From an uncultured Ruminococcus sp. (GTDB lineage: Bacteria; Bacillota; Clostridia; Lachnospirales; Lachnospiraceae): 46,282 nt of DNA. Position numbers and translations under genes: made by a program. The stretch spans positions 1 to 46,282 of the forward strand of contig CAJFGR010000013.1 in NCBI GenBank assembly GCA_904377845.1, given 5' to 3'. The notes beneath the pieces were generated by a model. It did not search any database. It saw nothing but the letters and a program-made list of their open reading frames with translations, and was not told the origin of the DNA. Positions 28,855 through 46,282 of the stretch are shown here, piece by piece. How positions within the stretch are numbered: the stretch's first letter is position 1; each line of letters begins with the position of its first letter.

Positions 28855-29082
28855 TCACGATATTGTACGAGAGATTGTGGCAGAAAATAATGTATCGGCT
28901 GTTCCTTTTTCTTTTTTACCTGTATTATTCTGAATCACAAGCACCAGACGTGCGCCTCCCTGCTCCGGGCCCTTGAACGGATTGAGATTCGCTATAAAAT
29001 ATAGTTTTCCACTATATCTCGTCATTGTGGGGCTGGAAATGATATGTCCGTTCCATGGATTTTTGCTCTGATTAGCAAATTG
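28855..29082 (-). pseudogene. Gene fragment without start, next to the direct repeat
   Basis: A 75-codon open frame between two stops with no suitable start. It reads like real protein (MTRYSGKLYFIANLNPFKGP, then RLVLVIQNNTGKKEKG). Its 5' end falls inside the direct-repeat copy at 29070-29115. Likely the C-terminal part of a gene cut by an insertion or deletion. Family not recognised. Confidence 0.45.
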
Positions 29083-29115
29083 TTAGCTGCTAATCGCTGT
29101 TAGGTTCTGTGTTCG
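29070..29115. repeat. Direct repeat, left copy
   Basis: 46 bp that match 46231-46276 at 43 positions. Begins GATTAGCAAATTG and ends GGTTCTGTGTTCG. Contains GATTAGCA and TGCTAATC as an inverted pair. Confidence 0.85.
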
Positions 29116-29133
29116 ATTTTTTTCAGAAAATGA

Positions 29134-29172
29134 AAGAAGCCGAAGTCCCCGTCAGGGATTTTCGGCTTCTCG
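29134..29172 (-). terminator. Terminator of the 15-kb operon
   Basis: On the minus strand AGAAGCCGAA ... TTCGGCTTCT, with an inner ATCCCTGACGGGGA, followed by TTCATTTT. It sits about 60 bp after the stop of the lectin-like gene. Confidence 0.7.
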
Positions 29173-29231: not shown

Positions 29232-30314
29232 TCATTCCTCAAACTCGATTATATACCCGACTTTTCCGCTTAGCAATTCCGGATAATCCTGTGCCAGATT
29301 TCCTGAAGAATCATTCAAATACCATGTTCCCGATACATAGAATAGGTTCATTACATCCTCTGTAATCATTCCTGTCGCTTCTGAACCTGTATCATTATAG
29401 CTTGGTTCTCCACTGTACCAGTATGGCATACAGAATGAATCGCTGCTGTTGAGGCATTCGCCCATAAACTCATTTTCTTTGTTTACCCAATAATAATCTG
29501 ATCCTGTATCATCTCGTCTTCCGCCCAGATAGAAATGTATATTTGTATAATCATTGAGCATATTTGTTATATACTGATATTCTTCAGCTGAACTGATTCT
29601 TGCCAAATAACCGCCCTGTTCCTGACTCCGGTATAACGCTTCTTCCCACGAGCAGTCATCAACAACAATCTGATATCTGTGGATTCCGGGATCATCTATC
29701 TCAGGTTCCGCGCTGATAATGGTTGTAACACGATAGTATGCCGTACCGGATTCAAACCAGAGATCTCCTCCAACCATAACATTCCTTCCGGCATATTCTT
29801 CCATGGAATACAAGCTTGTATCGTCAATATATACTTTATCTACATTTTCAACAAGAACATCTTCTCCCTGAATTTCGTCCCATGCATAGATATTCAGAAT
29901 CTCCTCCATCTGCAGACACTCACCATACTCATCCACTGTTCCTGCAAGCTCTACATAACTGTCAAGTGAAGCGTTGATATCTACCATTGACATATCAATT
30001 TCTTCCTCTGGTTCTTCTTCCTCTTCATCCTCCGGTTCAGCTGTTCCGATTGCGGGACCGGTCGGATCCCCCGGATCAGGATCGCTGTAACCGCCTGTAC
30101 CGTAGGTACTGTATGAAGGCTCAGAAGAATACATACTAAAATTAGATACAATTACGGCGAATATTACGATACACACTGCCACTGTCACAATCGCCGTAAT
30201 AATCTCTTTCTTTTCATTTTCCCTTGGTGCCTGATATAGTGGATTATCTTTAAGTGCTACTGTCCTTCCCCCCATTCCAACATTTTGGTTTTTCTCTTTT
30301 TTGCGAAATGCCAT
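29232..30314 (-). CDS. Membrane-anchored C-type-lectin-like domain protein
   Basis: 360 aa. A basic cytoplasmic N-terminus (about 35 residues), one membrane segment (38-60), then a long Gly/Pro/Asp and Glu-rich stalk (80-107). A middle region of about 115 residues (VELAGTVDEYGECLQME...) may be a small beta domain. The C-terminal C-type-lectin-like fold (about 225-360) reads HRYQIVVDDCSWEEALYRSQ, GGYLARISSAEEYQYITNML, FYLGGRRDD, YYWVNKENEFMG and GYIIEFEE. Type II topology would put the lectin domain outside. The start has GGAGGCG upstream. Last gene of the operon, 12 bp after the M48 gene, with a terminator downstream. Confidence 0.85.
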   Translation of the reverse strand: MAFRKKEKNQNVGMGGRTVALKDNPLYQAPRENEKKEIITAIVTVAVCIVIFAVIVSNFSMYSSEPSYSTYGTGGYSDPDPGDPTGPAIGTAEPEDEEEEEPEEEIDMSMVDINASLDSYVELAGTVDEYGECLQMEEILNIYAWDEIQGEDVLVENVDKVYIDDTSLYSMEEYAGRNVMVGGDLWFESGTAYYRVTTIISAEPEIDDPGIHRYQIVVDDCSWEEALYRSQEQGGYLARISSAEEYQYITNMLNDYTNIHFYLGGRRDDTGSDYYWVNKENEFMGECLNSSDSFCMPYWYSGEPSYNDTGSEATGMITEDVMNLFYVSGTWYLNDSSGNLAQDYPELLSGKVGYIIEFEE

Positions 30315-30326
30315 AATATTCGCCTC

Positions 30327-31514
30327 CTACTCTGCTGAAATAGTGTTCGCCTGCATGGATGCCTGTATGCGAGCTACGCGGTCCTCACTCGCCGGATGGC
30401 TGCTTGCCAGATTGGCAAACAGGCCCTTGGGCTTAGCGGACGGAAGAGTAGACAGCAGCTGGCAAAGCGCATCTCCATATCCAAGTCTGCAGGAAAATTC
30501 GTCTGCCTGATACTCGTTTCCCCTGCTGGTTTTCATACAGAGAAGTACGCCTATCTGTGTCCAGATTCTGTTAAACGCACGAATCACTATAACTGTCAGG
30601 AACCGTGAAAGTGCACTGACCATACGAACCCAAAATCCACTGTCATTTCTCATAAATAGCGATGAAATAGCAATAATAACATCCATCACAATCGCTGCTA
30701 TCTGGAACATATAACAAATTCCTGCAATCACTGTATTACCAATCGCTACTACCAGAATCCGATCAGTGTCTTTGTGGGCCAGATGACCGAACTCATGCCC
30801 CAATGCCGCTTTAATCTCTGCATCGCTCCAGGTCAGAAGTCCTCTGGTTACACATACTGTTCTTCGTCCTGTCGCAAATGCATTCGGACACTCATCCTCA
30901 TTAATAAATAACCTTACATCACTTGAAATCGACGGATTCTGTTTCTTTGCCTTGTAATACACTTCTCTGAACAGAGGTTCCAGACGTTCAATCACCGCGG
31001 CTTCCTCTATTTTTTTACAGCCATTCTGTCGACGAAGTATATATTCTCCGATCGGTGATACTGCAATAGATATTGATGCTATGTAAAGCAGGAGCGCTGC
31101 AGCCATTCCCCATCCAACAGGGAGTGCGCATACCGCAGTAACAAATGCGCCGATCAGAAGAACATTAAGCACGAGATAAATGCACAGAGGTATATTTTCT
31201 TTATTCCCCAACCGGATCAGGAAGTCCATAAAATAAAAGCTCTTAATACCTGACGGCTTTTCCGTAGGCAGTTTCGTATAATCATAGTTTATATCATCTA
31301 CTGCTTCTTTCGTTCTGTTAATATTCTGCTGCGTATTCCGCGGCTGCTCGATATTCTGCTGTGTGTTCCACGGCTGCTCAATATTCTGCTGTATATTCTG
31401 TGTCTGTTTCGGAACATAGGCAGCGGTTTCGGACTTCCGCACTATTTTTGTTCCGCAGTTTCCGCAGAACAGATCATCATCGTCAATTTTTTGTCCACAA
31501 TTCTTACAATACAT
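30327..31514 (-). CDS. M48 (HtpX-like) membrane metalloprotease with N-terminal zinc ribbon
   Basis: 395 aa. A double-Cys zinc ribbon at residues 3-20 (CKNCGQKI ... CGNCGTKI). Then a Gln/Asn-rich linker holding about three 10-residue repeats (NTQQNIEQP), two membrane segments (about 110-155), and an M48 protease domain with HEFGH (His240, Glu241, His244) and a third ligand in NEYQADEFSCRLG. A C-terminal HPASEDRVARI motif is typical of HtpX/Ste24 relatives. M48 proteases of this type deal with misfolded membrane proteins (family knowledge). Preceded by AGAGGG. It belongs to the long operon and shares its zinc-ribbon tag with two other members. Confidence 0.9.
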   Translation of the reverse strand: MYCKNCGQKIDDDDLFCGNCGTKIVRKSETAAYVPKQTQNIQQNIEQPWNTQQNIEQPRNTQQNINRTKEAVDDINYDYTKLPTEKPSGIKSFYFMDFLIRLGNKENIPLCIYLVLNVLLIGAFVTAVCALPVGWGMAAALLLYIASISIAVSPIGEYILRRQNGCKKIEEAAVIERLEPLFREVYYKAKKQNPSISSDVRLFINEDECPNAFATGRRTVCVTRGLLTWSDAEIKAALGHEFGHLAHKDTDRILVVAIGNTVIAGICYMFQIAAIVMDVIIAISSLFMRNDSGFWVRMVSALSRFLTVIVIRAFNRIWTQIGVLLCMKTSRGNEYQADEFSCRLGYGDALCQLLSTLPSAKPKGLFANLASSHPASEDRVARIQASMQANTISAE

Positions 31515-31577
31515 CTCATTCCCTCTTCTTTCCTATACCTTTTTCCCGTCCTGCGGGTCCCCAGCTGATGGTAATCC

Positions 31578-33275
31578 CTACAGACTTTGAAGAGCCTCCT
31601 CAATCTGTTCCTGATATGCGTCAAATTCATAATAGATCTGCTTCATTTGAGCATATTCTCCAAACAACTTCCGCAGTAATTCTGTCTTGCCGCTGATACT
31701 GAGTTCACAGTCTCTGGCAATCTGCTTTTTCTTTCTTTCATTCGATACAAATACATACAGGGAATACAGAGCACCCAGAGCAGCTCCTGCCGCAAACAGC
31801 GGATTTAGCGCAACCGCAGCGATAACGGCGGCAATCACAATACCGATCCCCACAAAAGCTCCGGTGTATTTTATCTGCGATATTTTTTCCTGTTTCTGTG
31901 CCTCATAGAATGAGGCTATTTTCCCTTCTTCACCAGTCTGATCCTGAAAATCTGCTGTCGTACGGTACTCGCCCAGCGTAATTGGATGAAGGCTGGTATC
32001 CATACTGCGATAGTCATCAGCATACTTTTTCACACCTTTTTTCTGGAGCGCTCCGGTAAGCATAAACATATTTTTGCGGGCCTGTACGTTCACATCCTCA
32101 GAGGTTCTGCCATACACCCATCCGATCATTTCACGAATCAGGTCGAGCGCCTTTTCGCGGCGTTCCTTCTCCTGCTGGAATATCGCATCTGCACGCTCTA
32201 CATCTCCCTCACAGCGGATAATAATTTCATTCCGTTCTATCTCATCATAAACTGCTGATTCCTGATCATTCGGTCTTTCAATTTCTTTATCGATAAATTT
32301 GCTGAGATATTCATTTTTTTCGATTTCACTGACGTTCGATACATCCAAAATAAACTGCAGAATCTGGATATTATTCTGTGCCATCATAACCATATCTGAT
32401 ATCTTCTGAAAATCATCGCAGCACTTCTGAAGAAGATTAAGCTGTAACGTATATCCCGGACTCAAAGCCAACAGATTACGCTCGATCAGATCAATAATGT
32501 CCGCTTCACTGAACCCTTCCGCCTGTGCGCTCACTGCGATAACCTTGTTGATAAAACTGTATATCTCATATTTAGTGTGATCATCAACCTGTTCGTCAAT
32601 CGTTTTACTTAACAATGAAAACAACATAAGAAATGTCTCTTCATCGCTCCCTTTCAGATCACATTCCTGGTATACTGAAAACCATTTCAGCGCTGCGTTT
32701 TCTCTTCTCATCCGGATATTGAACAACATATAAAATATCGAACTGTTTTTCTTATCCAGTCGGATGGCGCGGTCCATAGCTCTGTCCGCAAGTTCCCTGT
32801 CATCATTTTTCCACGCCATGATGCTAAGAAGCACACAAGTCAGCCAGTAGTCCGGCGTTTTTAAATGCTGCTTTTCAACAGATTTATAGATAACCTCATC
32901 AGATACCATCTGCACATTCAAATTATCCATAATCCCCTGGACAATCTTTCTTACTGTCCGATAGTTTCCAAACTCATAGTATTTTTTGTTATTGCACTCA
33001 CGGATTTTCTTATTTGCCAGTTCCATCTGCTTGAATCTGACATACAACTGATCTATCTGTCCCTGAACCTCATACGCGTCCAAAATCTTCGCGTGAGCAT
33101 TGTCGATCGCACGTTTTCCCTCGTCCATCGTTGCAGTCATATAATTTCTGAAATTTACTAATGACTGTGTAGCGTTATCGACACCGTTCTGGATCTCCCA
33201 GAGTTCAGCATTCAACTCCTGGTTTATCCGCTCCAGACGGCTTAATTCCGCGCGAAGTTCATTTATATTACTCAT
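31578..33275 (-). CDS. Coiled-coil / helical / two-TM protein, paralogue 3
   Basis: 565 aa from the ATG at 33275, with GGAGGAG eight bases before it. An N-terminal coiled coil (1-75) is followed by an all-helical region whose core is shared with the genes at 35496 and 37111: YRTVRKIVQG, TPDYWLTCVLLSIMAW, a run of Ala/Asp-rich helices and a KWFSVYQ box. Two hydrophobic segments lie near residues 470-520, then a charged tail. The start overlaps the AAA+ ATPase stop by 8 bp, so the two are translationally coupled and probably work together. No named family recognised. Confidence 0.85.
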   Translation of the reverse strand: MSNINELRAELSRLERINQELNAELWEIQNGVDNATQSLVNFRNYMTATMDEGKRAIDNAHAKILDAYEVQGQIDQLYVRFKQMELANKKIRECNNKKYYEFGNYRTVRKIVQGIMDNLNVQMVSDEVIYKSVEKQHLKTPDYWLTCVLLSIMAWKNDDRELADRAMDRAIRLDKKNSSIFYMLFNIRMRRENAALKWFSVYQECDLKGSDEETFLMLFSLLSKTIDEQVDDHTKYEIYSFINKVIAVSAQAEGFSEADIIDLIERNLLALSPGYTLQLNLLQKCCDDFQKISDMVMMAQNNIQILQFILDVSNVSEIEKNEYLSKFIDKEIERPNDQESAVYDEIERNEIIIRCEGDVERADAIFQQEKERREKALDLIREMIGWVYGRTSEDVNVQARKNMFMLTGALQKKGVKKYADDYRSMDTSLHPITLGEYRTTADFQDQTGEEGKIASFYEAQKQEKISQIKYTGAFVGIGIVIAAVIAAVALNPLFAAGAALGALYSLYVFVSNERKKKQIARDCELSISGKTELLRKLFGEYAQMKQIYYEFDAYQEQIEEALQSL

Positions 33276-34791
33276 AATGATCTCCTCCCTCGTTCTCCTC
33301 ATAGTAGGAAGCAGCTATGGCGCGTCTGCGTCCCCATTCCCTCAGCTTCAGTACAGCATCAGGATTTGTCCGCGCAAACGGGATGACGCGCCTGAATACC
33401 GATTTCATATAAGTCGGTGTCACAGCTTCATCTCCTTCTCTCAGCGCTGTCTCTGCAATCTCTTTTATCACATATTCTATATCCGAATAGGAAAAACCTT
33501 CCGACAGATCCACAAGTTCTGCAAGCAGTTCCGTTTCCAGGCAGCAGTGCAGGCACTGTCGTACATACTGGGCTATTACCTCCTGCCGCTCTTCTCTCAC
33601 AGGAAGATCAACAAAAAACAGTTCCGAAAATCTTCCTTTTCGAAATAATTCCGGCGGCAGAGCAAGAATATCATTTGCCGTAGCTACAAGAAAGACCCTG
33701 CTGGATGATTCCTGCAGCCAAAAAAGGAAATGTCCGAGCACTCTTTTTCCCGTATCATTACCGGAATCAGAGACTGACAACGCTTTTTCTATCTCATCGA
33801 TCCACACGATACATGGGGCTACATTATCAATAAATGACAGCGCCTCCCTCATTTTCCTCTCGCTTTCTCCGACCCATTTATCATAGACGCTTCCGATGTC
33901 AAACCGGAATAGAGGAAGTTCCCACTCCTGAGCAATCATTTTTGCTGAGAAGGATTTTCCGCATCCCGGAATTCCTGAGAGAAGAATTCCCTTCGGCGGA
34001 GCCATAGAACGATCTCTGAGCAGTTTTTCCTCCATAAAGAATATTTTCTTTTTTTCTTTCAGCCATTTCTTCAGATTTTCCAGCCCTGATACCCTCATGT
34101 CCGGATCGATCTTTACCTCTTCGACACAGGGCACGGATGCGTACATCCGGCTTTTCTGCTTTGTCAACCCATAGATGTGCTGCTTTTTCAGACCGCCGTT
34201 TGCCACCAGAGTGGAGGAAAGAATATTCTCTATCTGTATTTCAGTAAATCCTCTCAAAAGCGCCGAGGCCCGTGTAATATCACTTTCCTCCCACTCGATC
34301 GGAAATCTTCCTCCATACGTTGTGACAAACCTTTCAATCTGGCATCTGCGTTCTTCATCATCCGGATAGTCCAATACCGTCAGCATTCCGAATTGCGCAA
34401 TCCTTGACCACACAATATCCGGAGTTATGATAATAAGAGTAGACGCGTTCTCCAAAGCAAGATAGAGGATATTAAGTAACTCTTTACTGTACATATTCTC
34501 TTCCCCGATTTTTCGTGTATCGCCCAACGCAAATGTCACTCTTCTGTTACGGCGGAATTTTTCTGCCACATATGGCAGGGGATCATTTTCCACATCCTTA
34601 ACCGCTTTACTTCCGAACTGTGTAACTTGTCTCGCATCCGTGTAATACCCAATCTCTATCCGCTTATCTCTGCTTACTTCACGGAGCATTTTCTCCGCCC
34701 GTTCCCTCTCGCAAGTATTAATAATAATCAGGGGTACTCTGGCTTCTATATAATTTTCCAGTTCATTTTTTACTGTAACATAATTTCCCAT
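33268..34791 (-). CDS. AAA+ ATPase, Ycf46-like
   Basis: 507 aa. An N-terminal domain of about 240 residues (RVPLIIINTCERERAEKML, TLIIITPD) of the type found in Ycf46-like proteins. Then a classical AAA module: Walker A GIPGCGKS (273-280), Walker B IVWIDEIEK (328-336), sensor 1 VFLVATAND and the RKGRFSELFFVDLP box. The C-terminal helical lid follows (SEGFSYSDIEYVIKEIAE). Such ATPases act as hexameric remodellers; Ycf46 itself is linked to inorganic carbon use in cyanobacteria, which need not apply here. It starts 1 bp after the preceding stop and overlaps the next gene, so it is the tightly coupled engine of this operon. Confidence 0.92.
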   Translation of the reverse strand: MGNYVTVKNELENYIEARVPLIIINTCERERAEKMLREVSRDKRIEIGYYTDARQVTQFGSKAVKDVENDPLPYVAEKFRRNRRVTFALGDTRKIGEENMYSKELLNILYLALENASTLIIITPDIVWSRIAQFGMLTVLDYPDDEERRCQIERFVTTYGGRFPIEWEESDITRASALLRGFTEIQIENILSSTLVANGGLKKQHIYGLTKQKSRMYASVPCVEEVKIDPDMRVSGLENLKKWLKEKKKIFFMEEKLLRDRSMAPPKGILLSGIPGCGKSFSAKMIAQEWELPLFRFDIGSVYDKWVGESERKMREALSFIDNVAPCIVWIDEIEKALSVSDSGNDTGKRVLGHFLFWLQESSSRVFLVATANDILALPPELFRKGRFSELFFVDLPVREERQEVIAQYVRQCLHCCLETELLAELVDLSEGFSYSDIEYVIKEIAETALREGDEAVTPTYMKSVFRRVIPFARTNPDAVLKLREWGRRRAIAASYYEENEGGDHYE

Positions 34792-34792
34792 A

Positions 34793-35278
34793 TTATCTTC
34801 CGTACTTTTTCTTAAGTCGCATCACCGAAAATATAACTTCCTCCGCATCTGCCGCCGCTGTCTGCATCGTGATTCTGCCCATCTCACTGATTATATGCTT
34901 CCAGAATGCAAGAATCTGAGCCTTCAGGGCACTGTCAAGGTTTTCTACGAATTCCGAATCTAAAAATCTAATCCGCCTGTAAAAAAAACAGTACTCCATA
35001 TCTTTTTGCATACGTATGCATAGTGTCTGCACAGTATCAAATTCATTTCTTTCCAGTGCTTCATTCAGCGTTCTGTTAAAATTTCTGATATATCTCTTAA
35101 GCATCGTATTCACTGTAGCCACGACTCTTTTTTGAAAATTTTCCAATATGAGTCCTCTCTGAGGGATATTTCCCTCTCCTATCCTCTCGATATCTTCTTC
35201 GTGAATATAATGACTTTCCATCCATTTCAGTGATTCGAGCCATTCCTGATATGTAGACGGCGCTTTTAACTCCCCCAT
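34793..35278 (-). CDS. Small helical protein, function unknown
   Basis: 161 aa from the ATG at 35278, whose first base is the last base of the previous gene's TAA (TAATG). This is classic translational coupling, and no Shine-Dalgarno is present or needed. An upstream in-frame ATG at 35314 would overlap the small gene by 37 bp and is less likely. All-helical, with many aromatic and charged residues (YQEWLESLKWMESHYIHEEDIERI). No family recognised. Its place next to the ATPase suggests an adaptor or substrate. Confidence 0.75.
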   Translation of the reverse strand: MGELKAPSTYQEWLESLKWMESHYIHEEDIERIGEGNIPQRGLILENFQKRVVATVNTMLKRYIRNFNRTLNEALERNEFDTVQTLCIRMQKDMEYCFFYRRIRFLDSEFVENLDSALKAQILAFWKHIISEMGRITMQTAAADAEEVIFSVMRLKKKYGR

Positions 35279-35466
35279 TATTTCAAGAAGCTGTACGGCG
35301 GTTCCAGACTCCATGACGGCAGCTTCTTGTTCATTTCTTTGAGTCTTTCATTGGATACATCAACTTTTTGCCCAGGCGCGGTGAAATTTGACTGTATACG
35401 CTGCTCCATCATTGCCTCAAAGTCCATTGTTTCCTGCGAGTTCTTATTTGTGTTTTCGTTTGTCAT
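35278..35466 (-). CDS. Small acidic/polar protein, function unknown
   Basis: 62 aa. Polar and probably disordered N-terminus (MTNENTNKNSQET), then a short helix-forming part (NERLKEMNKKLPSWSLEPPY). GGAGGAAAA lies eight bases before the ATG, so it is a real gene despite its size. Its stop overlaps the next gene's start (TAATG). Not recognised. Confidence 0.75.
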   Translation of the reverse strand: MTNENTNKNSQETMDFEAMMEQRIQSNFTAPGQKVDVSNERLKEMNKKLPSWSLEPPYSFLK

Positions 35467-35495
35467 TTTCTTTTCCTCCTCTGTATCTCATACTC

Positions 35496-37097
35496 TTAAA
35501 TAAACTCAGCTGCTGAAAGTACTTCGTCTTTTTTCTCTACATTTTCCTCAAAGTACTGCCTGAAATCAGCTATTTCCGCCATAGTCTGACTTAAAGCCGC
35601 CAATGCGCTGTTCACTCTCTTCGGGTAATCTTTCACCGCCTTAACACAGCGGAAAATCAGAATTGCCGCTGCTGCCACAGTAACCACCAGCGCATAGAGA
35701 GTTACAAAAGCAAGACCGGCGGATAAAACCAGCGCAATCAGAGCAGCAATATTGATCGTATTGACAAACATATTCTGGAATTTGTTTGTCTCATAATATT
35801 TCTTCATATTCTCTGTCAGTTCTTCCTGGTCATTCCCATTGCTGACCCCGCTCCAGGTATCGATATTCAGCGAATACTCAATCGGAAATTCCTGCTGCAC
35901 TTTCATCGTCCATTTTTCTAAGGCACTCTGGAACCATGTCTTTGTATTCTGAAAACCGAATTTTCTGACCGTAACATCTGTAGTGTCGCTGTCGTCATAG
36001 ATAGCCCATTTTATCATCTGCTTTCCGATATTAAAATGTTCATTCTGAAGAGCCATCTCAGCTTCATACTGTGCCTCCGCTTTTTCTACTTCCCCTTCAT
36101 TACGAACGATTAAATTAAAATACTCCTGCTGATTTCTTAAGTCCTTTTCCTCCGCATCGTAATTTGAAATCAGATCAATCAATACCGCATCCACTCTTTC
36201 CGCGTAATTGTCATCATTCTGTTCTCCCGCTTCCACTTCAAGACCGCCCAGGACTTGGAGAAGCACCTGATATTTCGACACATCATTATAGGATTTCATA
36301 AGTTCCTGTGAATTGCTGCAGAATTGTTTGATCCCCTCATAATTAAATGTTACCTGCGGATTTATATTAGCAATATACTGTTCATACGCATTGACAAGTT
36401 CCTCGCAAATCTCAGCATCCTCATTGATAATGGAGATCCATTGATCTATCACATCAATAACTTCATATTCAAGCTCTTTGTCCTTCCCGAAAATACCGTT
36501 TAAAAATGCCTGAAGCATAACCGCGGTTTCCTGCTGCAGCATTGTAGGATCCAACGTCTTAAAATACTCATAGAACCATTTTTTGGCAGCTTCCATCCTG
36601 TTAAACCGGAGATTTAACAGGCAGAAGAATAATGTGGTTTTAATAGCGTCTTTTCTTCCGCTCTCCGCTAAAGCATTCTTAGCGACGTCCGGATAATCAT
36701 TTACCCATGCTGTTATAGCAATCAGCGCATAGGACAGCCAGTATCTGGAACTTGTCAGCCACAGTTCTTCTGAAAGTTCCTGGATTGTACTGTTTCTCAC
36801 AAGGTTAATGTCAAAATCACGTACAACGCCCATTACAGTTCGGCGTATTGTCTCATAATTACTGAACTGTTCTTTTATAATCTGATCAATACGAATAATA
36901 TTTTCATGAGCAAGCTGTTTCTGTTCGCCATGCTCCATTTCCTCACGGAATTCCAGTATCTTGTCATAAATCCTGCTTGCGGCCTGGTCCACGCTGACAC
37001 TGGACTGGTGGATTTCTTTTACGTGCACATCTACATTTGACTCAAAATTATTAATCGTATTATTTAAATTATTAATAGCTCCTGTTACATTAGACAT
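35496..37097 (-). CDS. Coiled-coil / helical / two-TM protein, paralogue 2
   Basis: 533 aa. An N-terminal coiled coil (1-70) leads to the core shared with its two neighbours: YETIRRTVMG, SSRYWLSYALIAITAW, TTLFFCLLNLRFNRMEAAKKWFYEYF. Two hydrophobic stretches lie near residues 450-490 (IAALIALVLSAGLAFVTLY), then a helical tail. GGGGGTAG precedes the ATG. It lies 13 bp after paralogue 1. The helical core has a TPR-like rhythm, but I cannot assign a domain by eye. Confidence 0.87.
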   Translation of the reverse strand: MSNVTGAINNLNNTINNFESNVDVHVKEIHQSSVSVDQAASRIYDKILEFREEMEHGEQKQLAHENIIRIDQIIKEQFSNYETIRRTVMGVVRDFDINLVRNSTIQELSEELWLTSSRYWLSYALIAITAWVNDYPDVAKNALAESGRKDAIKTTLFFCLLNLRFNRMEAAKKWFYEYFKTLDPTMLQQETAVMLQAFLNGIFGKDKELEYEVIDVIDQWISIINEDAEICEELVNAYEQYIANINPQVTFNYEGIKQFCSNSQELMKSYNDVSKYQVLLQVLGGLEVEAGEQNDDNYAERVDAVLIDLISNYDAEEKDLRNQQEYFNLIVRNEGEVEKAEAQYEAEMALQNEHFNIGKQMIKWAIYDDSDTTDVTVRKFGFQNTKTWFQSALEKWTMKVQQEFPIEYSLNIDTWSGVSNGNDQEELTENMKKYYETNKFQNMFVNTINIAALIALVLSAGLAFVTLYALVVTVAAAAILIFRCVKAVKDYPKRVNSALAALSQTMAEIADFRQYFEENVEKKDEVLSAAEFI

Positions 37098-37110
37098 CTC
37101 ATTCTACCCC

Positions 37111-38850
37111 CTATTCCATCTCATTTCCAAACCGGGAAAGCGCATCTTCCAGATCGCTGAATCTGTTATCCTCCTGATGCAGCACATTTCTCCACTCTCT
37201 CAGTTCTTCCAGACAATGTTCTATCTTCTGTACTGCAAGTCTCTTTTTCTCCTTCAGCAGGCCGCCGAGATCAACGATTCGCCGCCACAGAAGGAACGCT
37301 CCTACAATAACCAGAAGAATCCCAATCGTCAGGGCAATCTTTGAAAAATGTACCGCCATGATTCCCAGTGTCAAAATGCCGCATGCACAGAGCAGTATAT
37401 AAAGAAGTATAAACTTGTCCGAAAGCATATTTTTCCATCTGTTTTTTTCAAAATATGTTTCTATGCTCTTCTTTGCCTTGCTGAATTCATCTTCGGTACA
37501 GGTAACTTTGCATCCGTCCACCTCAAAGTCATAAGACTCTTTCTCTTTTTCCCTGTAATCTTTTGCAAATTTTTCGTATCCTTTTAAGATCCAGTCTTTC
37601 ATAAATGAAATAGAGAACTTCTGTATGATCCCGGGCGTAAGATTGGTATCTTCAGAAAAAGCCCACTCAGCAAGAAGATCGCCGAAAGTCATTTTCTTAT
37701 CACTGCCGAATTCCTGCTCATATTTCTCCTGAGCTTTCGTAACATCTCCCTGAGCACTCAGAACCGCATCATTGTATCTGATCTTTTTAACAACTTCCAA
37801 TTCAGCATCGTCATAACTGTTGACCAGCGCGTATAATACATTCTCTATTCTCTGCGCAATATCCTCGCTGGTTTCATCTCCCGTATCAAGCAGTTTTCCA
37901 TAACGTTCTGCAATTACTGAGTTTTTCTCAGCATCTGTCAGCATATTTTCCATTTCCTGATAAGAAGTACAGTATCTTTTGAGATAGGAAAATCCCTGCT
38001 TTGTCTGATGTAAATATGTGCGCGCAAACTCATACGCTTTGTCACTGAATTTCTTGCCGAAATCAACTGTTGTTGCTTCTGTCTTTGCCAGCATACCTTT
38101 TAAATTTGCCGCGATTACAGCCTGAAATTCCTCGCTCTGCCCGAATGCCCCGGAAAGATATGAAAGAAGAAGATACTTCCACTCCTCTCCCAAATCCGAA
38201 GGATTAACTCTCTCCATATAGTATGTAAACCACTTTTGAGCCGGCTCAATCCTTCCGAAACGAAGGTTGATCAGCATGAAAAACAACGCCGCTTTCGTCG
38301 GACTCATAAACAAAGCTTTTCCGACAGCTCTCTTCGCCGCTTCCTCTTCATTACTTGCCCACAGCATAACTGCCGCGGAAGCATAAGCCAGCCAGTAATC
38401 CGTATTCTGCAGATATTCTTTTTCTACTACTTTCCGCATATTGTCAGCAGTTACAAACTGAGTATCAAGACCGATCACATAGCCTAAAGTAATTCTCCGA
38501 AGCTGATGGAAATTCGAAAAACGCGTATAATATTCATCCGTATACTGTGACAGATTCTTTGATGCGGTTGACAATGTCTTAAAAGTGAAATACTGTCTTG
38601 TAAGCTCTTCAATTGCCTCGCTGATCTTCTGTGTGTCTGTTGCATTTGCAGATATCTCCGAAGCCGTATTTTTCACTCTGTTCTCTACATTTCCATGCAG
38701 CGTCCGCACATTTTTCTCCAAAATATATACGTCGCTTACGGCAGATTCTATTTCTGCGATCAGGCGGTTGTTTTCCGCGATCAGCGCATTAATCTGATTT
38801 ATAAGCCGTTCTATTTCCCGTTGTTCCTGTTCGTATTCTTCCTGTGTCAT
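37111..38850 (-). CDS. Coiled-coil / helical / two-TM protein, paralogue 1
   Basis: 579 aa. A long N-terminal coiled coil (1-85, EIERLINQINALIAENNRLIAEIE). Shared core: FHQLRRITLGYV, NTDYWLAYASAAVMLWAS, AALFFMLINLRFGRIEPAQKWFTYYM. Two hydrophobic segments near residues 490-535 (FILLYILLCACGILTLGIMAV) and a charged helical C-terminus. GGAGGGG lies upstream of the ATG. It is the first of three paralogues in the operon and is followed directly by paralogue 2. It may build a membrane-tethered scaffold. Confidence 0.87.
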   Translation of the reverse strand: MTQEEYEQEQREIERLINQINALIAENNRLIAEIESAVSDVYILEKNVRTLHGNVENRVKNTASEISANATDTQKISEAIEELTRQYFTFKTLSTASKNLSQYTDEYYTRFSNFHQLRRITLGYVIGLDTQFVTADNMRKVVEKEYLQNTDYWLAYASAAVMLWASNEEEAAKRAVGKALFMSPTKAALFFMLINLRFGRIEPAQKWFTYYMERVNPSDLGEEWKYLLLSYLSGAFGQSEEFQAVIAANLKGMLAKTEATTVDFGKKFSDKAYEFARTYLHQTKQGFSYLKRYCTSYQEMENMLTDAEKNSVIAERYGKLLDTGDETSEDIAQRIENVLYALVNSYDDAELEVVKKIRYNDAVLSAQGDVTKAQEKYEQEFGSDKKMTFGDLLAEWAFSEDTNLTPGIIQKFSISFMKDWILKGYEKFAKDYREKEKESYDFEVDGCKVTCTEDEFSKAKKSIETYFEKNRWKNMLSDKFILLYILLCACGILTLGIMAVHFSKIALTIGILLVIVGAFLLWRRIVDLGGLLKEKKRLAVQKIEHCLEELREWRNVLHQEDNRFSDLEDALSRFGNEME

Positions 38851-38883
38851 TTTACTTCACCCCTCCTCTTTCTTTGTTTTTAT

Positions 38884-40884
38884 CTAAAATAAAAACGAGA
38901 ATACTTTATTATCTTCACACAGTTTTCTTGACAGCATTCCCAATGCATCTTTGTTATCGACAGCATACTTTTTAAATTTCATATCTGTCTGGTCTGCCCG
39001 GATTACCGGATTCAGCCTTGCTCCCGCATCTTTCATCATATTGACAATATCAATTGCCGTAGGTTCCGAATCCCCTGTTGCAAGAACATAGCCCTGAATC
39101 AGACTGCAGGTTATTGTATGCCCCAAATGATTAATCTGACATCCTGAAGTTCCCAGCGGTACGCTGCACTGTGATGAAAAGGCTCGTAAATTCTGTACTT
39201 TCGTTCCATCATCCTTTCCAAACAGCACATAATTCGTAATTGCTGCCGGGCTGATTCGCCCGGCCGGGCTGTAAAGCGCTTTTATTATCTGGGAATGATA
39301 ACAATGATCTCTTGCTTTCTCCAGATAAGTGCTGAGCGCGTCATTTCTGAATCTTCCGCCATTATTTGTCATTCTCTGGATATATTCTATCGTCTCCTGC
39401 AGATTTTCTTCTGAAGTATTACATGCCATCTCTATGACCGTTTCCGGATCTCCCTGAAGTCCCAAGTCCGTCAGGAATGTAATAATCTCTTCCCTGACAG
39501 ATGGGTCATCCGGAGATTTTTTCATATAGTCCGACAAAAGTTCCCTGTAAAAACTCAGGTTCAGATCAAGCCCGAATAACATTCTTATAATCTCCGGTTT
39601 TCTTTCCCCATCTGCCGAACATTTTAATACATAATCTGTCACAGTATTAGTTGAAAGAGTCTTTACTGATGACAACAATTCCTGTATTACTTGAATACGG
39701 ACGTCAACGGCATCGCTATTTTCGGTCAGGTACCTGCCAATCACGTTATCATAGGTCTTGTCATTGACATTCCACTTCTTAATCATTTGAAGAAAGCTTA
39801 CTTTTTCATCCCCTTTAAGATCTTTACGCGTTAACATCGTATCAATATCTGCAGGAGAAAATACAATAAACATCCCTTTCTCTGCCATTGTCCCCAATTC
39901 CTCAGATGCACTCCTGAAGGTGTGTCCTGCCATAATATGATGGATCAGAAGATATAATTCTGTATCGTTTGGTTTCGAATCACAAAATCTCCCGATTACT
40001 TTCTTCAGCAGCTCTGTGTTCTCGTCAAGATATGCCAGAAGATACTGGATCACATATTCTATAGATGCTGACGCACCCTTTTTCCCAGCCTCATCATATG
40101 TGCATACTTTTGTCTGGATACTGTCTCCAGATGTCTGCAGATATTGCTCTATTTCATATCTGTCGTCAGGAACCAGTCCCGCATTTCCTATAATCCTGCA
40201 AATATGTTCCCGTTTTTTTTCACCATCTTCATATTTGTTGATTACAAGGAAAAATGCTTTCTTACAGTCAATATTATCGATATTTGCGAGGACGGTGTCC
40301 GCCATCTCTATTTTGCCGCTATTCATTGCGTAATTCAGCAGGCTTTCATTTAATGTCTGTGAATAAACTGCTGATGCATCCAGCAGATTTTCGGCAAAAT
40401 CTCTGTGTACGGTGTCTCCCAGCGAATCAAACACAAGCACCAGGACTGCAAAAGCATCTCCATTTTCTTCAAAAGCCTCGTACAAAGCCTCCTCTTCTGT
40501 GGAAATAGCTTCATCACGTTCCTTTAGTTCATCATATCCCCGCTTCAGTTGTCCGATCAGACTTTTTGAAGCTCCAGGAGCACACGCTCCTGGAGTTGTC
40601 AGGGTAAACATTTTAAAACAAAGCCGGGCAATAAGCGTACCTATATAAGATGAATCGATCTTTTCACATTCCGAGAGATTCTTTTCCGCGCTGTCAAGTC
40701 TCCCATACGCAATATCCACAAGTGTCTGTTTCACAACGTTTTTTATTGTATAGAGACCGTCATATTCTTCTTCCCGACGCATCTCATTACCACAATACTG
40801 ACAGATCCATACTTTTTTTTCTTTATTATATTCCAGCGAACCTGCGCAGCAATTACATTTCAGACTCTTATAATTTGACGCCAT
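38884..40884 (-). CDS. Zinc-finger protein with helical repeats, function unknown
   Basis: 666 aa. N-terminal zinc finger with CNCC (10-13) and CQYC (28-31), followed by a long all-helical, Leu/Asp/Glu-rich region that looks like TPR/HEAT-type repeats. An ankyrin-like end is possible (TAIDIVNMMKDAGARLNPVI, about residues 615-640). No membrane segment. The ribosome binding site is weak (GGGGAAG), unlike its neighbours. A 10-bp stem-loop lies in the coding strand at 40572-40595 (encoding TPGACAPGASK). Probably a scaffold or recognition protein of the operon. Confidence 0.83.
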   Translation of the reverse strand: MASNYKSLKCNCCAGSLEYNKEKKVWICQYCGNEMRREEEYDGLYTIKNVVKQTLVDIAYGRLDSAEKNLSECEKIDSSYIGTLIARLCFKMFTLTTPGACAPGASKSLIGQLKRGYDELKERDEAISTEEEALYEAFEENGDAFAVLVLVFDSLGDTVHRDFAENLLDASAVYSQTLNESLLNYAMNSGKIEMADTVLANIDNIDCKKAFFLVINKYEDGEKKREHICRIIGNAGLVPDDRYEIEQYLQTSGDSIQTKVCTYDEAGKKGASASIEYVIQYLLAYLDENTELLKKVIGRFCDSKPNDTELYLLIHHIMAGHTFRSASEELGTMAEKGMFIVFSPADIDTMLTRKDLKGDEKVSFLQMIKKWNVNDKTYDNVIGRYLTENSDAVDVRIQVIQELLSSVKTLSTNTVTDYVLKCSADGERKPEIIRMLFGLDLNLSFYRELLSDYMKKSPDDPSVREEIITFLTDLGLQGDPETVIEMACNTSEENLQETIEYIQRMTNNGGRFRNDALSTYLEKARDHCYHSQIIKALYSPAGRISPAAITNYVLFGKDDGTKVQNLRAFSSQCSVPLGTSGCQINHLGHTITCSLIQGYVLATGDSEPTAIDIVNMMKDAGARLNPVIRADQTDMKFKKYAVDNKDALGMLSRKLCEDNKVFSFLF

Positions 40885-40916
40885 TCCTGTTTCTTCCCCA
40901 CTCTTTCATTCCTTAC

Positions 40917-41615
40917 TTACTTTGTAGCTTTTAATAGATTGTTCCTCTGAAGGAATAAAACTTCTATTTCTCCGCATTTTTTAGCAGCATCCGCGTTCTG
41001 TCCGTTTTCACAACAGATTCTCAACTCATTCAGAGCCTGCATAATACGTCCCTCTATATCTGTTACAGCATCATTTGACATGGGATCCGAATACCGGATT
41101 GTCTCGCTGAGCTTGCGCAGTTTCTCTTTTAATGCCGGATCCTGAGCCTGAGCTTTTAATGTTTCCACATCGGCCTGCATTGATCTGATTGCGACTACGC
41201 TCACTTTAATATTGTCATTTACATCCTGAACTGTATCTCTTGCCATAAGAGCAATAACCGCAATAACCAGATATACCGCAAGAACAATGACCTGAAGTGC
41301 TATTGCCAGCTTGACCGGTGCATTCTGAAATATCATAAATACCGCTGATATAAATACTGCGGCAAAAAAGTAGAATAATGAGATCGATACCAATGGTATT
41401 CCAAAAAATACCGCTTCTACCTCAAGCGCTTTTACAGCAAGAAACATACTCACAATCTGTATAACAAATGCCGCGCACATAAAGCCATAGCTGATCCAGA
41501 ATACATTGTTTTTCTCATTAAACACAAAAAATACAAGCATATTCATTACCGCAAATACTACAACATATATAATAGAAAATAATATCAGCGTTTTCTTATC
41601 TGTCATTCTCCTCAT
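40917..41615 (-). CDS. Four-TM membrane protein with cytoplasmic coiled coil
   Basis: 232 aa. Four hydrophobic segments (about 10-30, 40-62, 68-92, 100-122) and then a soluble helical C-terminal part of about 105 residues with coiled-coil character (VSVVAIRSMQADVETLKAQ). GGAGGAA is eight bases before the ATG at 41615. It sits between the SPFH gene and the zinc-finger gene, as small membrane partners often do in ydjFGHI-like loci. No family assigned. Confidence 0.83.
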   Translation of the reverse strand: MRRMTDKKTLILFSIIYVVVFAVMNMLVFFVFNEKNNVFWISYGFMCAAFVIQIVSMFLAVKALEVEAVFFGIPLVSISLFYFFAAVFISAVFMIFQNAPVKLAIALQVIVLAVYLVIAVIALMARDTVQDVNDNIKVSVVAIRSMQADVETLKAQAQDPALKEKLRKLSETIRYSDPMSNDAVTDIEGRIMQALNELRICCENGQNADAAKKCGEIEVLFLQRNNLLKATK

Positions 41616-41664
41616 TTTTCATTCCTCCTGTTGTCAGTTGTATTTTACCGATCTTGATATAACC

Positions 41665-42942
41665 TCAACTCAGCTTTGTTCCACATTCCGGACAGAACTT
41701 CATTCCCGGTTTAATCTCATTTCCACAGTTCGGACATATATTACTTGAAAGCTTGTTTCCACATTCTGAACAGAATTTAGCACCCGGTGCTACCTCTGCG
41801 CCACATTCCGGACAATATTTCTTCTTTGCTTCTGCTTGTTCTGAAGCATTCTCTTCCTGGCTCTCTTTTACCTTCGCTGTCTCTGCATCCTGTCCGGCTG
41901 TACTGTCTGCCTGCTGCGGATTATGTAAAAACTCAGTAACATCAAGTCCTTTACCTGCCGTTTTTCCCTCTGCGTTGCTTCCCATCGGAGGCTTTACTTC
42001 GGCTGAATTCTTCGGAGGCTTTGTCAGGCCTGCAAACATCTCTGGATTGAGGGCATTTCTTGCCACTTCGGAAATTGTATTTCCCATGACAATTCCTCCC
42101 ATAGCGCCTCCCATTACACCGCCTACAGCACCCATACTGCCCTCATTCGCGGCAAATTTCTCAGCAATCATCATCTGACGTTCTTCCTGCCAGGTATATC
42201 CCTGGATCAAGCGGCTGGTACGAAGTTTTTTGGCCTGCGAAATTTCCGCGTAATCCTGATCCGGAACTTCAATTGCTTCTATATTGAAGAACTCAATTTT
42301 AACACCGTACTCTGCAAAAATTTCATCCAATCTTTCTTTAACAACATCACTGATTTCAAGAAGATGAGAACTGATCATAAAATAGCTGAGCTGCCCGTCA
42401 ATCATAATCTTTGAAATACAGTCTTTCACGTGTGATGAAATAATTCCTCTGAATTTTCCTACCAGAGAATTTGTTGCTGCCTGTCCTCTTCCTCCAGTCT
42501 GGCTCTCAGCATAGAACGATTTCTGGAATCCAACCATTTTCAGCATAAATTTTCTTGAATCATCTACTGACACAGACATACTTCCGTGCAGCATAACATG
42601 CATAAAAATATCATAAAGCGGGTCTTCCAGCGGTATTGCGCTCTGCGTTCCCCACTTCATATCCATCTGATGAACTTTATTTATAAAGAAAACTTTACAT
42701 GGGAAGGCGCTTACTCCGCCTGTAGGAATCTCTATAATACTTCTTAAAATCGGAATATTAGAGGTACTCAAGGTTCTTCTGCCCGGGCCGAACAGATCAG
42801 CGGCATTACCGTTGATCACAAGCAGTGCCTCATGTGTCTCGTCAACGATCAGCTGTGATGTGGTATTAAAATCCTCCGCAGGATGTTTCCATACAAGCTG
42901 ATTTGGATCTCCCTCAAATTTAATTACTTCAGAAATAGCCAT
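41665..42942 (-). CDS. SPFH-domain (YdjI/virion-core-like) protein with C-terminal zinc ribbons
   Basis: 425 aa. N-terminal SPFH-like domain (about 10-245: FEGDPNQLVWKHPAEDF, SQLIVDETHEALLVING, GPGRRTLSTSNIPIL, IEFFNIEAIEVPDQDYAEISQ), then a Gly/Met-rich stretch (GAVGGVMGGAMGGIVMG), a linker, and two CxxC-CxxC zinc ribbons at 372-425 (CPECGAEV ... CSECG, CPNCGNEI ... CPECG). In Bacillus, YdjI of this family brings the PspA-type protein YdjF to the membrane with YdjG/YdjH (established). Here PspA is absent and AAA+, coiled-coil and zinc-finger proteins take its place. Second gene of the operon. Confidence 0.92.
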   Translation of the reverse strand: MAISEVIKFEGDPNQLVWKHPAEDFNTTSQLIVDETHEALLVINGNAADLFGPGRRTLSTSNIPILRSIIEIPTGGVSAFPCKVFFINKVHQMDMKWGTQSAIPLEDPLYDIFMHVMLHGSMSVSVDDSRKFMLKMVGFQKSFYAESQTGGRGQAATNSLVGKFRGIISSHVKDCISKIMIDGQLSYFMISSHLLEISDVVKERLDEIFAEYGVKIEFFNIEAIEVPDQDYAEISQAKKLRTSRLIQGYTWQEERQMMIAEKFAANEGSMGAVGGVMGGAMGGIVMGNTISEVARNALNPEMFAGLTKPPKNSAEVKPPMGSNAEGKTAGKGLDVTEFLHNPQQADSTAGQDAETAKVKESQEENASEQAEAKKKYCPECGAEVAPGAKFCSECGNKLSSNICPNCGNEIKPGMKFCPECGTKLS

Positions 42943-43000
42943 ATTCTCTCATTCCTTTCTTTTTTATCTTCATCAGATGATGCCGGGAAGCATCATCATA

Positions 43001-44363
43001 TTATTTTCTCAGCTTAGAGGGCTTCGCTCTTGCAAGTTTCTCTACTCTCTCAGTTCTGAATCCACGAGTAAACTGTTGGGGTACTATATGATCCTCCTTT
43101 GGGACATACGTCTGTCCTGTCTCAGAGACTTCAATTAAATTGTCCTCAACGTTCTGAATAATGCTTTGCTCGTCCGGTATTATTTCTTCATGAATTGATT
43201 CCATTTGAGCAAGCTTCTTATCTATTTCTTCGCGATAAACTCTATCTTCTTCCTGACGCCGTCTTTCTTCCTCTTCTCTTCTTCTCGCGGCCTCCTCTTC
43301 TTCCTGACGCCGTCTCTCTTCCTCTTCTCTTCTTCTCGCGGCCTCCTCTTCTTCCTGACGCCGTTGACGCCGTCTCTCTTCCTCTTCTCTTCTTCTCGTG
43401 GCTTCCTCTTCTTCTCGTCGCTGTCTTTCTTCCTCTTCTCTTCTTGCGGCTTCCTCTTCTTCTCGCCGCCTCTCTTCCTCTTCTCTTCTTCTCGCGGCTT
43501 CCTCTTCTTCCTGACGCCGTCTTTCTTCCTCTTCTCTTCTTGCGGCTTCCTCTTCTTCCTGACGCCGCCTCTCTTCCTCTTCTCTTCTTGCGGCCTCCTC
43601 TTCTTCCTGACGCCGTCTCTCTTCCTCTTCTCTTCTTGCGGCTTCCTCTTCTTCCTGACGCCGTCTCTCTTCCTCTTCTCTTCTTCTTGCGGCCTCCTCT
43701 TCTTCCTGACGCCGTCTTTCTTCCTCTTCTTCCTGACGCCGTCTTTCTTCCTCTTCTCTTCTTGCGGCTTCCTCTTCTTCTCGCCGTTGCCTTTCTTCCT
43801 CTTCTCTTCTTGCGGCTTTCTCTTCTTCCTGACGCCGCCTCTTCTTCCTCTTCTCTTCTTGCGGCTTTCTCTTCTTCCTGACGCCGCCTCTCTTCCTCTT
43901 CTCTTCTTCTCGCAGCTTCCTCTTCTCTCTTTTTTACAATTTCTAATTCTTTATAATCAACTTCTCTGCTTATACTCTTTCTTTTCTTTTGCAAAGGATT
44001 TAACTTTGGATGTAATATTGATTCGCACGGATTTTTTCCGTTTAGAAGAAATGGATTAACTATATCGTTTTCCACATTCGACATCTTAATGGAAATATCC
44101 GAAGTTTTTTTTCTATCAGACTGACCATGATTTTCTTCTTCTGGAATAGATTCTTCGGATGAAAGATCTGACAGTATCACTCTGGAACCGCATTTTGAAC
44201 AGAATTTGGCTCCTGGCTTCAATGATTTTCCACAAACACTGCATCTTTGTTCGTCATCTTTTCTAAATGAAGCATTTTGTTCTTCTATTTCCACTTTTGT
44301 TCCACATTTTACACAAAATTTTGCTCCATTCTTCAGTTCTTGTCCACAAACTTTACATTTCAT
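43001..44363 (-). CDS. Double zinc-ribbon protein with charged tandem repeats, frameshifted
   Basis: First gene of the operon. The ATG at 44363 follows GGAG. Two zinc ribbons open the protein (CKVCGQEL ... CVKCG, CSVCGKSL ... CSKCG), then a polar linker, then a long Glu/Arg repeat region (units like EEEAARREEEERRRQE). One extra base near 43841-43845 moves the reading into an Arg/Gly/Lys-rich frame that ends at 43242. The intended frame continues after the repeats as EEDRVYREEIDKKLAQMES... and stops at 43001. With the base removed the protein is 453 aa. Either the gene is broken, the count varies between cells, or the base call in this repeat is wrong. Confidence 0.75.
43240..43930 (-). repeat. 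Tandem 45/48-bp repeats coding for Glu/Arg-rich coiled coil
   Basis: About fourteen degenerate units (plus strand GACGCCGTCTCTTCCTCTTC with variants) code for 15-16-residue EEE/RRR blocks, probably one long charged helix. One unit near 43735 is a short duplicate and one near 43370 has an extra GACGCCGTT. The low complexity also keeps the other frames open, which makes false genes on the plus strand. Confidence 0.85.
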
Positions 44364-44406: not shown

Positions 44407-44434
44407 ATTATACAATATTTAGTATATTTTTCAA
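44407..44434 (-). promoter_or_regulatory. Promoter of the 15-kb operon
   Basis: TTGAAA (44434-44429), 16-nt spacer, TATAAT (44412-44407), in very AT-rich DNA about 45 bp before the first gene. It is the only clear promoter I see upstream of the 12 co-directional genes. Confidence 0.7.
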
Positions 44435-46109: not shown

Positions 46110-46256
46110 GATTAGCAGGATTTTTTGCGGAAATTTTGCTCCGATTAGCAGGAAGCCGTTTTTCATTAGCAAAAATCCTCTCGTTTCTGCTAATTATTAG
46201 CAGCTAATGGAATTGTACAGTTCAGAGTCCGATTAGCAAATTGTGAACTGCTAATC
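46110..46256. repeat. Cluster of ATTAGCA motifs in both orientations
   Basis: Seven copies of ATTAGCA or TGCTAAT (46111, 46144, 46165, 46188, 46196, 46232, 46249) in about 147 bp without a credible gene. The last two belong to the direct-repeat copy. A small open frame across 45963-46172 lacks a ribosome binding site and is not supported. Confidence 0.65.
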
Positions 46257-46276
46257 GCCGTTAGGTTCTGTGTTCG
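46231..46276. repeat. Direct repeat, right copy
   Basis: Matches 29070-29115 at 43 of 46 positions, same orientation, 17.16 kb apart, then continues in T-rich sequence to the window edge. Confidence 0.85.
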
Positions 46277-46282
46277 GATTTT

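Follow-up and report, generated by a model that had tools for sequence, protein, structure and literature searches.

A recurrent four-family core around an AAA+ ATPase in a twelve-gene operon of an uncultured Ruminococcus sp., and its possible role in a mobile conflict module

Several described gene sets share components with a twelve-gene operon of an uncultured Ruminococcus sp. (assembly GCA_904377845.1). The operon lies on contig CAJFGR010000013.1, whose whole stretch of 46,282 nucleotides (nt) is hereafter referred to as the window (contig C13 of a 2.76-Mb genome of 74 contigs, 98.9% complete; loci, genomes, and contigs are numbered with L, G, and C). Its core consists of four families that were also found together in other phyla, namely a coiled-coil, possibly TPR-like, transmembrane (TM) protein (P), a small protein with a C-terminal motif (motif protein), a helper protein (g7), and an AAA+ ATPase (g8 in the window). 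A Pfam scan covered ten of the twelve window proteins, the motif protein was scanned separately, and g1 was in no scan; NCBIfam, PADLOC, and PHROGs scans were performed on the ten larger window proteins, and their matches indicated no named system covering the set. No description of the window's gene set turned up in the literature searched.

In the part of Kaur et al. (2020; PMC7159879) used here, NTP-dependent conflict systems include MoxR-vWA ternary, DO-GTPase, and EACC1-caspase systems. The NTPase core, variable effectors including caspase-type peptidases, membrane association, and patchy spread resemble the present module, but its core ATPase is a classical AAA, and the sole passage with "classical AAA" in that part of the paper concerns FtsH. 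MoxR, vWA, and GTPase were absent among the Pfam matches of the ten proteins; EACC1, VMAP, and GAP1 were not searched by model. In pspA-ydjGHI of Bacillus subtilis (as described in part of PMC8581546), an SPFH protein brings its partner to the membrane beside TM proteins. As in the window, this SPFH protein has a C-terminal zinc finger, has no TM segment of its own, and is encoded next to TM proteins; in contrast, P is larger, possibly TPR-like, and contains TM segments, and the window adds an AAA+ ATPase, a motif protein, and a protease. No PspA was found among the window proteins scanned with Pfam. A classical AAA ATPase together with zinc-ribbon and SPFH proteins is also seen in archaeal ESCRT-type clusters with Vps4/CdvC and SPFH (part of PMC10936438); Pfam matched no ESCRT-III or MIT family in the window proteins scanned.

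The likeness to IetAS lies in the AAA+ domain of g8, which matched IetA models, but the match was restricted to the ATPase domain (residues ~253-463; PADLOC, 9.6e-27), scored 71 bits against a cut-off of 510 for NF042959 (IetA, NCBIfam), and is accompanied by other partners. The partner IetS had no model match among the ten proteins scanned, with g1 and the motif protein outside that scan. A CdvC model also matched the AAA domain of g8 in the NCBIfam scan (1e-22). The match of g8 to phrog_8638, labeled "unknown function" in PHROGs, extended over residues 7-497 of 507 (E = 1.3e-88) and thus included both the N-terminal part and the AAA domain, but only the top two of 80 ATPase loci on viral contigs carried P in the stretch fetched. 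We take Ycf46 to be the name in use for g8-like ATPases.

The core families are represented in the window as follows:
37111 to 38850, minus strand: P1 (g5), coiled-coil/TM paralogue, possibly TPR-like (homology, hydropathy scan)
35496 to 37097, minus strand: P2 (g6), second paralogue (homology, predicted structure)
35278 to 35466, minus strand: motif gene, 62 amino acids (aa), C-terminus LPSWSLEPPYSFLK (translation of a gap, motif pattern)
34793 to 35278, minus strand: g7, helper protein with a TYxEW motif, 161 aa from the proposed start (the longest open reading frame, ORF, starts at 35314)
33268 to 34791, minus strand: g8, AAA+ ATPase, 507 residues (PF00004, 2.5e-28; phrog_8638; Walker A and B residues kept)
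31578 to 33302, minus strand: P3 (g9), third paralogue (homology)

A tally of 26 loci with P at E < 1e-100, window included, was made with profiles and the motif pattern. The motif gene was present in 25 of them (26 with a variant in L091), and g7 and the ATPase were each present in 24, the same loci; in L091, only the first part of the ATPase was found, at a contig end. A fifth family, mp, accompanied the core in 19 of the 26. Kept outside the tally were L040 and L011, whose loci lack P; L067, in which P is fragmented and the motif gene and an SPFH remnant are present; and 11 loci of a weaker P subfamily. Also outside it were a weak match in G416 and one of the two G226 places. Because each locus was brought in via P or the ATPase, the loci do not count as independent samples.

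Searches starting from the ATPase yielded six strong loci of eight in a genome collection (Streptomyces uncialis, S. buecherae, two Verrucomicrobia, Eremiobacterota, and candidate division KSB3), two besides the own genome among 200 genomes of the family, four besides the own among 392 genomes of the order (E < 1e-200), the top four of 46 plasmid records, one full-length match of 13 in phage records, and the top two of 80 viral-contig loci kept (of 127). For the two strong loci without P (L011 and L040), the ATPase lies at a contig end, and P was found on another contig in both genomes. Weaker ATPase relatives (L008, L041, and 78 viral loci) had no P in the stretch fetched. In the reverse direction, 7 of 392 genomes of the order carried P at E < 1e-100, five of them with a strong ATPase; the ATPase also accompanied P in the phylum genome G743 and in all six strong-P genomes of the Streptomyces family. 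An earlier note, made from the window alone, had joined the ATPase and the coiled-coil/TM paralogues in a membrane-linked unit and had proposed conserved neighborhood as the check. This pairing held in both directions, with P in the locus for 17 of 19 strong ATPase-first loci and, when the own genome is included, the ATPase in 12 of 14 strong P-first genomes. The core is very probably one functional unit.

The order P, motif gene, g7, ATPase recurred in Clostridia, Streptomyces, Pseudomonadota, Fusobacteria, and Verrucomicrobia, which argues against the operon being an ordinary cluster of unrelated co-directional genes. We regard such a chance cluster as very improbable for the operon as a whole; the recurring order refutes it for the core, and it stands for the add-on genes alone. 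In its favor, g4 and the genes for an M48 protease and a lectin-like protein are not widely shared, and several promoter-like sites occur inside the operon. The boundaries of the operon were assigned to the following elements:
44407 to 44434, minus strand: sigma-70-like promoter, TTGAAA-16-TATAAT (consensus match only, 11/12 positions)
29134 to 29171, minus strand: intrinsic terminator hairpin (16 pairs, then U-rich sequence)

Between them, all twelve genes run from 44,363 to 29,232 on the minus strand in the order g1, g2 (SPFH), g3, g4, P1, P2, motif gene, g7, ATPase, P3, M48, and lectin-like gene, with gaps of 1-63 nt and elsewhere short overlaps. The terminator expected by the earlier note was confirmed (-22.8 kcal/mol; z = -4.4; none of 200 shuffles equally stable), although a simple terminator scan did not list it. 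The claim of one promoter held in part: the site at 44,434-44,407 matches as proposed, but the scan gave 62 sites (39 ± 6 in shuffles), several of them intragenic, and one at 36,312-36,285 also matches 11 of 12 positions. A single message for the operon is not established, given these sites inside genes.

Eleven of the genes are obvious ORFs, and the count of twelve in the earlier note is correct once the 62-codon motif gene is included, which sits in the 181 nt separating P2 from the g7 ORF as listed. This gap was blank in the ORF lists, and a similar gap was present in relatives; translation of the gap in eight loci revealed in each a small frame with [LF]PxWxxxPP, mostly followed by basic RR. 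Since the second P of the motif was present in only 21 of 25 motif genes (not in L042, L043, L090, and L092), the pattern is written [LF]PxWxxxP. In the window, the gene is preceded by AGAGGAGGAAAAGAAA (a GGAGG-type stretch), and its stop shares one base with an ATG of g7. Because of this overlap, g7 probably starts at 35,278 rather than 35,314. The chain of L009 extends some 30 residues past the motif, and the variant in L091 is one residue longer. Zinc ribbons were detected by Pfam in the motif protein of L036, and CxxC pairs were seen by eye in those of L021, L038, and L039. As a control, the terminal-motif pattern was applied to the 12,202 open frames of all loci and matched 33 (24 motif genes, one P with the terminal motif, and eight others). 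The motif protein, which the earlier note did not describe, is the most constant partner of P. P was present at every motif-gene locus counted, even where the ATPase, g7, or mp was missing. In the satellite phage Javan368 (L045), a motif gene between P and g7 (about 11409-11585) is unannotated.

Homology among the three coiled-coil/TM proteins, proposed in the earlier note, was borne out (P1-P2, 24% identity, E = 5e-47; P1-P3, 26%, E = 2e-32). P2 was the top-scoring paralogue for eight of nine single-P loci compared, the exception being L010 (P1 112 bits, P2 107 bits). The predicted structure of P2 (predicted local distance difference test score, 83) is almost all alpha, with a 93-residue N-terminal helix, and hydrophobic segments are located at 440-489; coverage in the P fold search was mainly of residues 74-209. 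The P proteins, motif protein, and g7 of the window, as well as mp, had no Pfam match above cut-off and no PHROG match where scanned. The weaker P subfamily differs from the strong loci in its surroundings, with no motif gene downstream of P in any of the 11 loci; in two of them (L068 and L069), P itself ends in the motif, a fusion of the two. Four Streptomyces-type loci (L083 and L085-L087) have a second P subfamily with a divergent gene resembling a P-loop NTPase and lack a motif gene; a Ser/Thr kinase gene (PF00069) is located downstream in L083, the only one of the four tested.

Members of the g7 family are ~150-185 aa long across loci. The aromatic loop KWVGESE of g8 is at what we take to be the pore-loop position of AAA+ proteins, as would be expected if a partner is threaded. 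A tail of the form R[RK]x[LIV][LIV], perhaps a shared docking tail, ends the ATPase in L042-L044, L092, L010, and L013, and a similar tail ends g7 in L042, L043, L009, L014, and L090; it is absent from the window copies. On contig C43, the own genome encodes another two AAA+ ATPases from the wider family to which g8 belongs (L008, 11392-17670; 32-33% identity), each preceded by a 222-291 aa partner, with a relaxase-like gene nearby (by eye). No P is present there, so the pair represents a second kind of system.

The core was found on mobile elements. All four P-bearing plasmid records were the top four of the 46 with an ATPase. A Comamonas antarctica megaplasmid and a Komagataeibacter nataicola plasmid share the order mp-P-motif-g7-ATPase; in the annotation of the latter, a transposase gene precedes the module and an integrase follows at some distance. 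The order P-motif-g7-ATPase-mp was found in Fusobacterium vincentii and at one end of satellite phage Javan368, and in a contig of the viral collection (L093) the module is near serine recombinase-like genes (by eye). One record of the plasmid collection, the 2.1-Mb Fusobacterium sequence L044 (NZ_CP084075.1), is more likely a chromosome. Distribution among relatives was patchy: P was detected in none of 36 other same-genus genomes (completeness 75 to 100%), in 2 of 398 genomes of the phylum, own included, in 1 of 194 genomes of the phylum of L009, namely L009's own genome, and in 13 of 200 Streptomyces-family genomes, seven of them weak.

The surroundings of the operon also vary. To its left lies a dlt-like set (AMP-binding, PLP decarboxylase-like, and MBOAT genes), and the region beside the AMP-binding gene differs in each of five congeners with enough sequence. 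Type I restriction-modification genes occupy the dlt-like flank in L187, and a run of ~100-120 aa WXG100-like ORFs (by eye) was seen at the same flank site in L190 (10028-12061). To the right of the operon and around it, the following features were identified:
44732 to 45799: Fic/DOC family gene (PF02661, 5e-14), right of the operon
29067 to 29120, no strand: 55-nt direct repeat, copy 1 (91% to copy 2)
46228 to 46282, no strand: 55-nt direct repeat, copy 2, at the contig end (98% to a site in L188)

L188 also has a Fic gene 48% identical to that of the window. The repeats flank the operon and the Fic gene on both sides, and together with the differing flanks they fit a variable insertion site; an element is not proven.

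Genes neighboring the core differed between lineages and included effector-type genes. Caspase-type genes were present in seven of the 26 strong-P loci, all Streptomyces-type (two named Streptomyces and five other genomes of the family; two of the seven built the profile). In each of the seven, the gene is divergent from the core, and beyond it lies a large ORF of 975-1550 aa; PF00656 was tested in two of these loci, and the one large ORF tested contained CHAT (PF12770, 4.5e-48). In Clostridia, the neighbors are HExxH proteins or carry a papain-fold toxin domain. In L021, the ATPase is followed by a protein with papain-fold toxin 1 (PF15644, 4.3e-15) and then an 87-aa gene, and L036 encodes a 779-aa protein with HEHNH in the same place. 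ThiF/JAB and E2-type genes are near the core in L092. Constant core and changing effector-type neighbors are what an ATPase-controlled conflict system would show, and the changing protease and toxin neighbors shift the balance from envelope repair towards such a system.

Some of these neighbors would also suit export or delivery of toxins, in which a HerA/FtsK-type ATPase and membrane-bound P export polymorphic toxins, with a gene for immunity after each. HerA-type ATPase genes were found beside P in four strong-P loci (L019, L021, L036, and L092; the first three built the profile, and Pfam DUF87/HerA_C was detected in L019, L021, and L092). The L021 and L036 proteins have a 68-residue stretch in common (38%, 2e-9) and different C-terminal parts. 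In L019, the HerA-type gene and P1 are separated by the gene for a 247-aa HELWH protein, which matched DUF6782 below threshold; small genes follow the HExxH proteins of L019 and L036, like the 87-aa gene of L021. However, no immunity family was matched by these small genes, neither a HerA-type nor a toxin-type gene was detected in the window, and none is annotated in the five-gene Comamonas and Komagataeibacter copies or in the satellite phage. The caspase-type genes of Streptomyces are, to our knowledge, not exported toxins. Toxin export is accordingly considered unlikely.

The window copy carries additional genes around the core:
41665 to 42942, minus strand: g2, SPFH (Band_7_1) protein with a C-terminal double zinc ribbon (PF13421, 5.3e-30; DZR, 2.2e-13)
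40917 to 41615, minus strand: g3, four hydrophobic segments and a C-terminal part (hydropathy scan, relatives)
38884 to 40884, minus strand: g4, 666 aa, N-terminal CxxC pairs by eye (no Pfam family above cut-off)
30327 to 31514, minus strand: g10, zinc ribbon and M48 metalloprotease with hydrophobic segments, HEFGH present (PF01435, 5e-21)
29232 to 30314, minus strand: g11, one hydrophobic segment and a C-type lectin-like domain (PF00059, 1.2e-4)

The SPFH, AAA+, zinc-ribbon, protease, and lectin domains read from the letters in the earlier note were all recovered by Pfam among the ten proteins; P, g3, g4, and g7 of the window matched no Pfam family above cut-off. The lectin match of g11 is close to its threshold (23.3 bits; cut-off 22.6), and its domain may face outward. 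The hydropathy scan revealed no hydrophobic segment in g2. Relatives of g3 adjoin SPFH in L019, L063, and L064, and a relative of g4 was found only in L019 among the loci compared. Part of g10 has a match (1e-4) where L021 ends.

SPFH was present in 4 of the 26 strong-P loci and is a lineage add-on; the earlier note's inclusion of SPFH in the unit does not extend to the core. The part that stood is a second real association of SPFH with P: in two strong-P genomes of the order (L063 and L064), P and the motif gene sit with SPFH, a g3-like gene, and one for a zinc protein, whereas the 20 kb fetched contain no ATPase gene. This association would suit an envelope-stress or membrane-repair machine of the Psp kind, in which SPFH is the scaffold of a membrane patch, P replaces PspA, the AAA+ ATPase recycles P, and the M48 protease clears damaged membrane proteins. 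Consistent with it, the window's zinc-ribbon SPFH protein beside a multi-TM protein resembles YdjI with YdjG/YdjH (part of PMC8581546), and the M48 protein matched HtpX models in the NCBIfam scan, below their cut-offs. In contrast, PspA (PF04012) was not found above cut-off in the own genome (one match on contig C36, 24.8 bits against 33.9), and 9 of 14 control genomes were positive in this search. This absence and the low SPFH count make Psp-type repair less likely; satellite phage and plasmid copies, the lack of P in all 36 congeners sampled, and caspase-type neighbors are unexpected of a housekeeping function. We consider envelope repair a rather doubtful explanation.

We favor, tentatively and with slightly less than even confidence, the reading that the operon is an enlarged copy of a mobile membrane-anchored anti-phage (conflict) module whose ATPase is predicted to control exchangeable effectors. 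P proteins may form a membrane-bound scaffold with a long coiled coil, a TPR-like groove, and a C-terminal TM hairpin. TPR grooves commonly bind C-terminal peptides, and the [LF]PxWxxxP tail would dock on P, since, of its partners, P alone is present in every strong-P locus examined, and two relatives have the motif fused to the end of P. g7 is probably an adaptor, given that it occurs in the same loci as the ATPase, and would connect the AAA+ ring with the P/motif complex. Infection or membrane damage might prompt the ring to remodel the complex, with the paralogues as a possible substrate, and to free or activate an effector, a role for which the neighboring genes are candidates. Putative effectors in the window copy are the M48 protease, the assembly of the three paralogues, or both, and SPFH, g3, g4, and the lectin-like protein could serve as a membrane platform and outside sensor. 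A bolder form of this proposal, possible but doubtful, is an undescribed immunity class: a membrane-anchored AAA+ machine built on four Pfam-less families, in which a micro-protein tail motif couples the membrane coiled-coil scaffold with an unfoldase of the Ycf46-like kind, which would set free interchangeable proteases and toxins, spread by plasmids and satellites and grown into the twelve-gene, SPFH-based, three-paralogue Clostridial form.

Several observations weigh against the conflict-module reading. Family mp is absent from the window, and a P scan of viral contigs gave none that was confirmed. The minimal Comamonas, Komagataeibacter, and satellite-phage forms have no obvious effector gene, and, apart from the partial g10 match in L021, the M48 and lectin genes were seen with P in the window alone among the 26 loci, so that their assignment as effectors rests on position. 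Weaker P relatives occurred in 13 genomes, with the ATPase in none of the 12 such loci fetched. PADLOC matches of the ten window proteins were limited to AAA/IetA/TRIP13-type models, a weak ZorA match (P1), and a weak LmuB match (g10), and a Sir2-like gene near L019 had no PADLOC match. A clear defence set was present at the dlt-like flank in only one of five congeners. The SPFH, TM, and lectin parts also fit envelope stress, and the HerA-type ATPases with toxin-type and small-gene pairs would fit toxin export too.

If the reading is correct, the operon would represent an immune-type machine with its own core and give a concrete role to a Ycf46-like AAA+ ATPase. SPFH membrane scaffolds would be linked to conflict biology through the Clostridial form, and bacterial caspase-type proteins would gain a new activator through that of Streptomyces. 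With the tail motif and the plasmid-borne five-gene form, the function can be tested directly in laboratory strains.

The first gene of the operon has the following parts:
43001 to 44363, minus strand: g1, two zinc ribbons (by eye), a long EEARR-type charged repeat, and a C-terminal tail (ORFs, inspection)

The repeat (43240-43930) consists of 48-nt units, and the reading frame shifts within it near 43.84 kb. This shift reflects a phase-variable switch or else a mistake in the assembly of low-complexity sequence.

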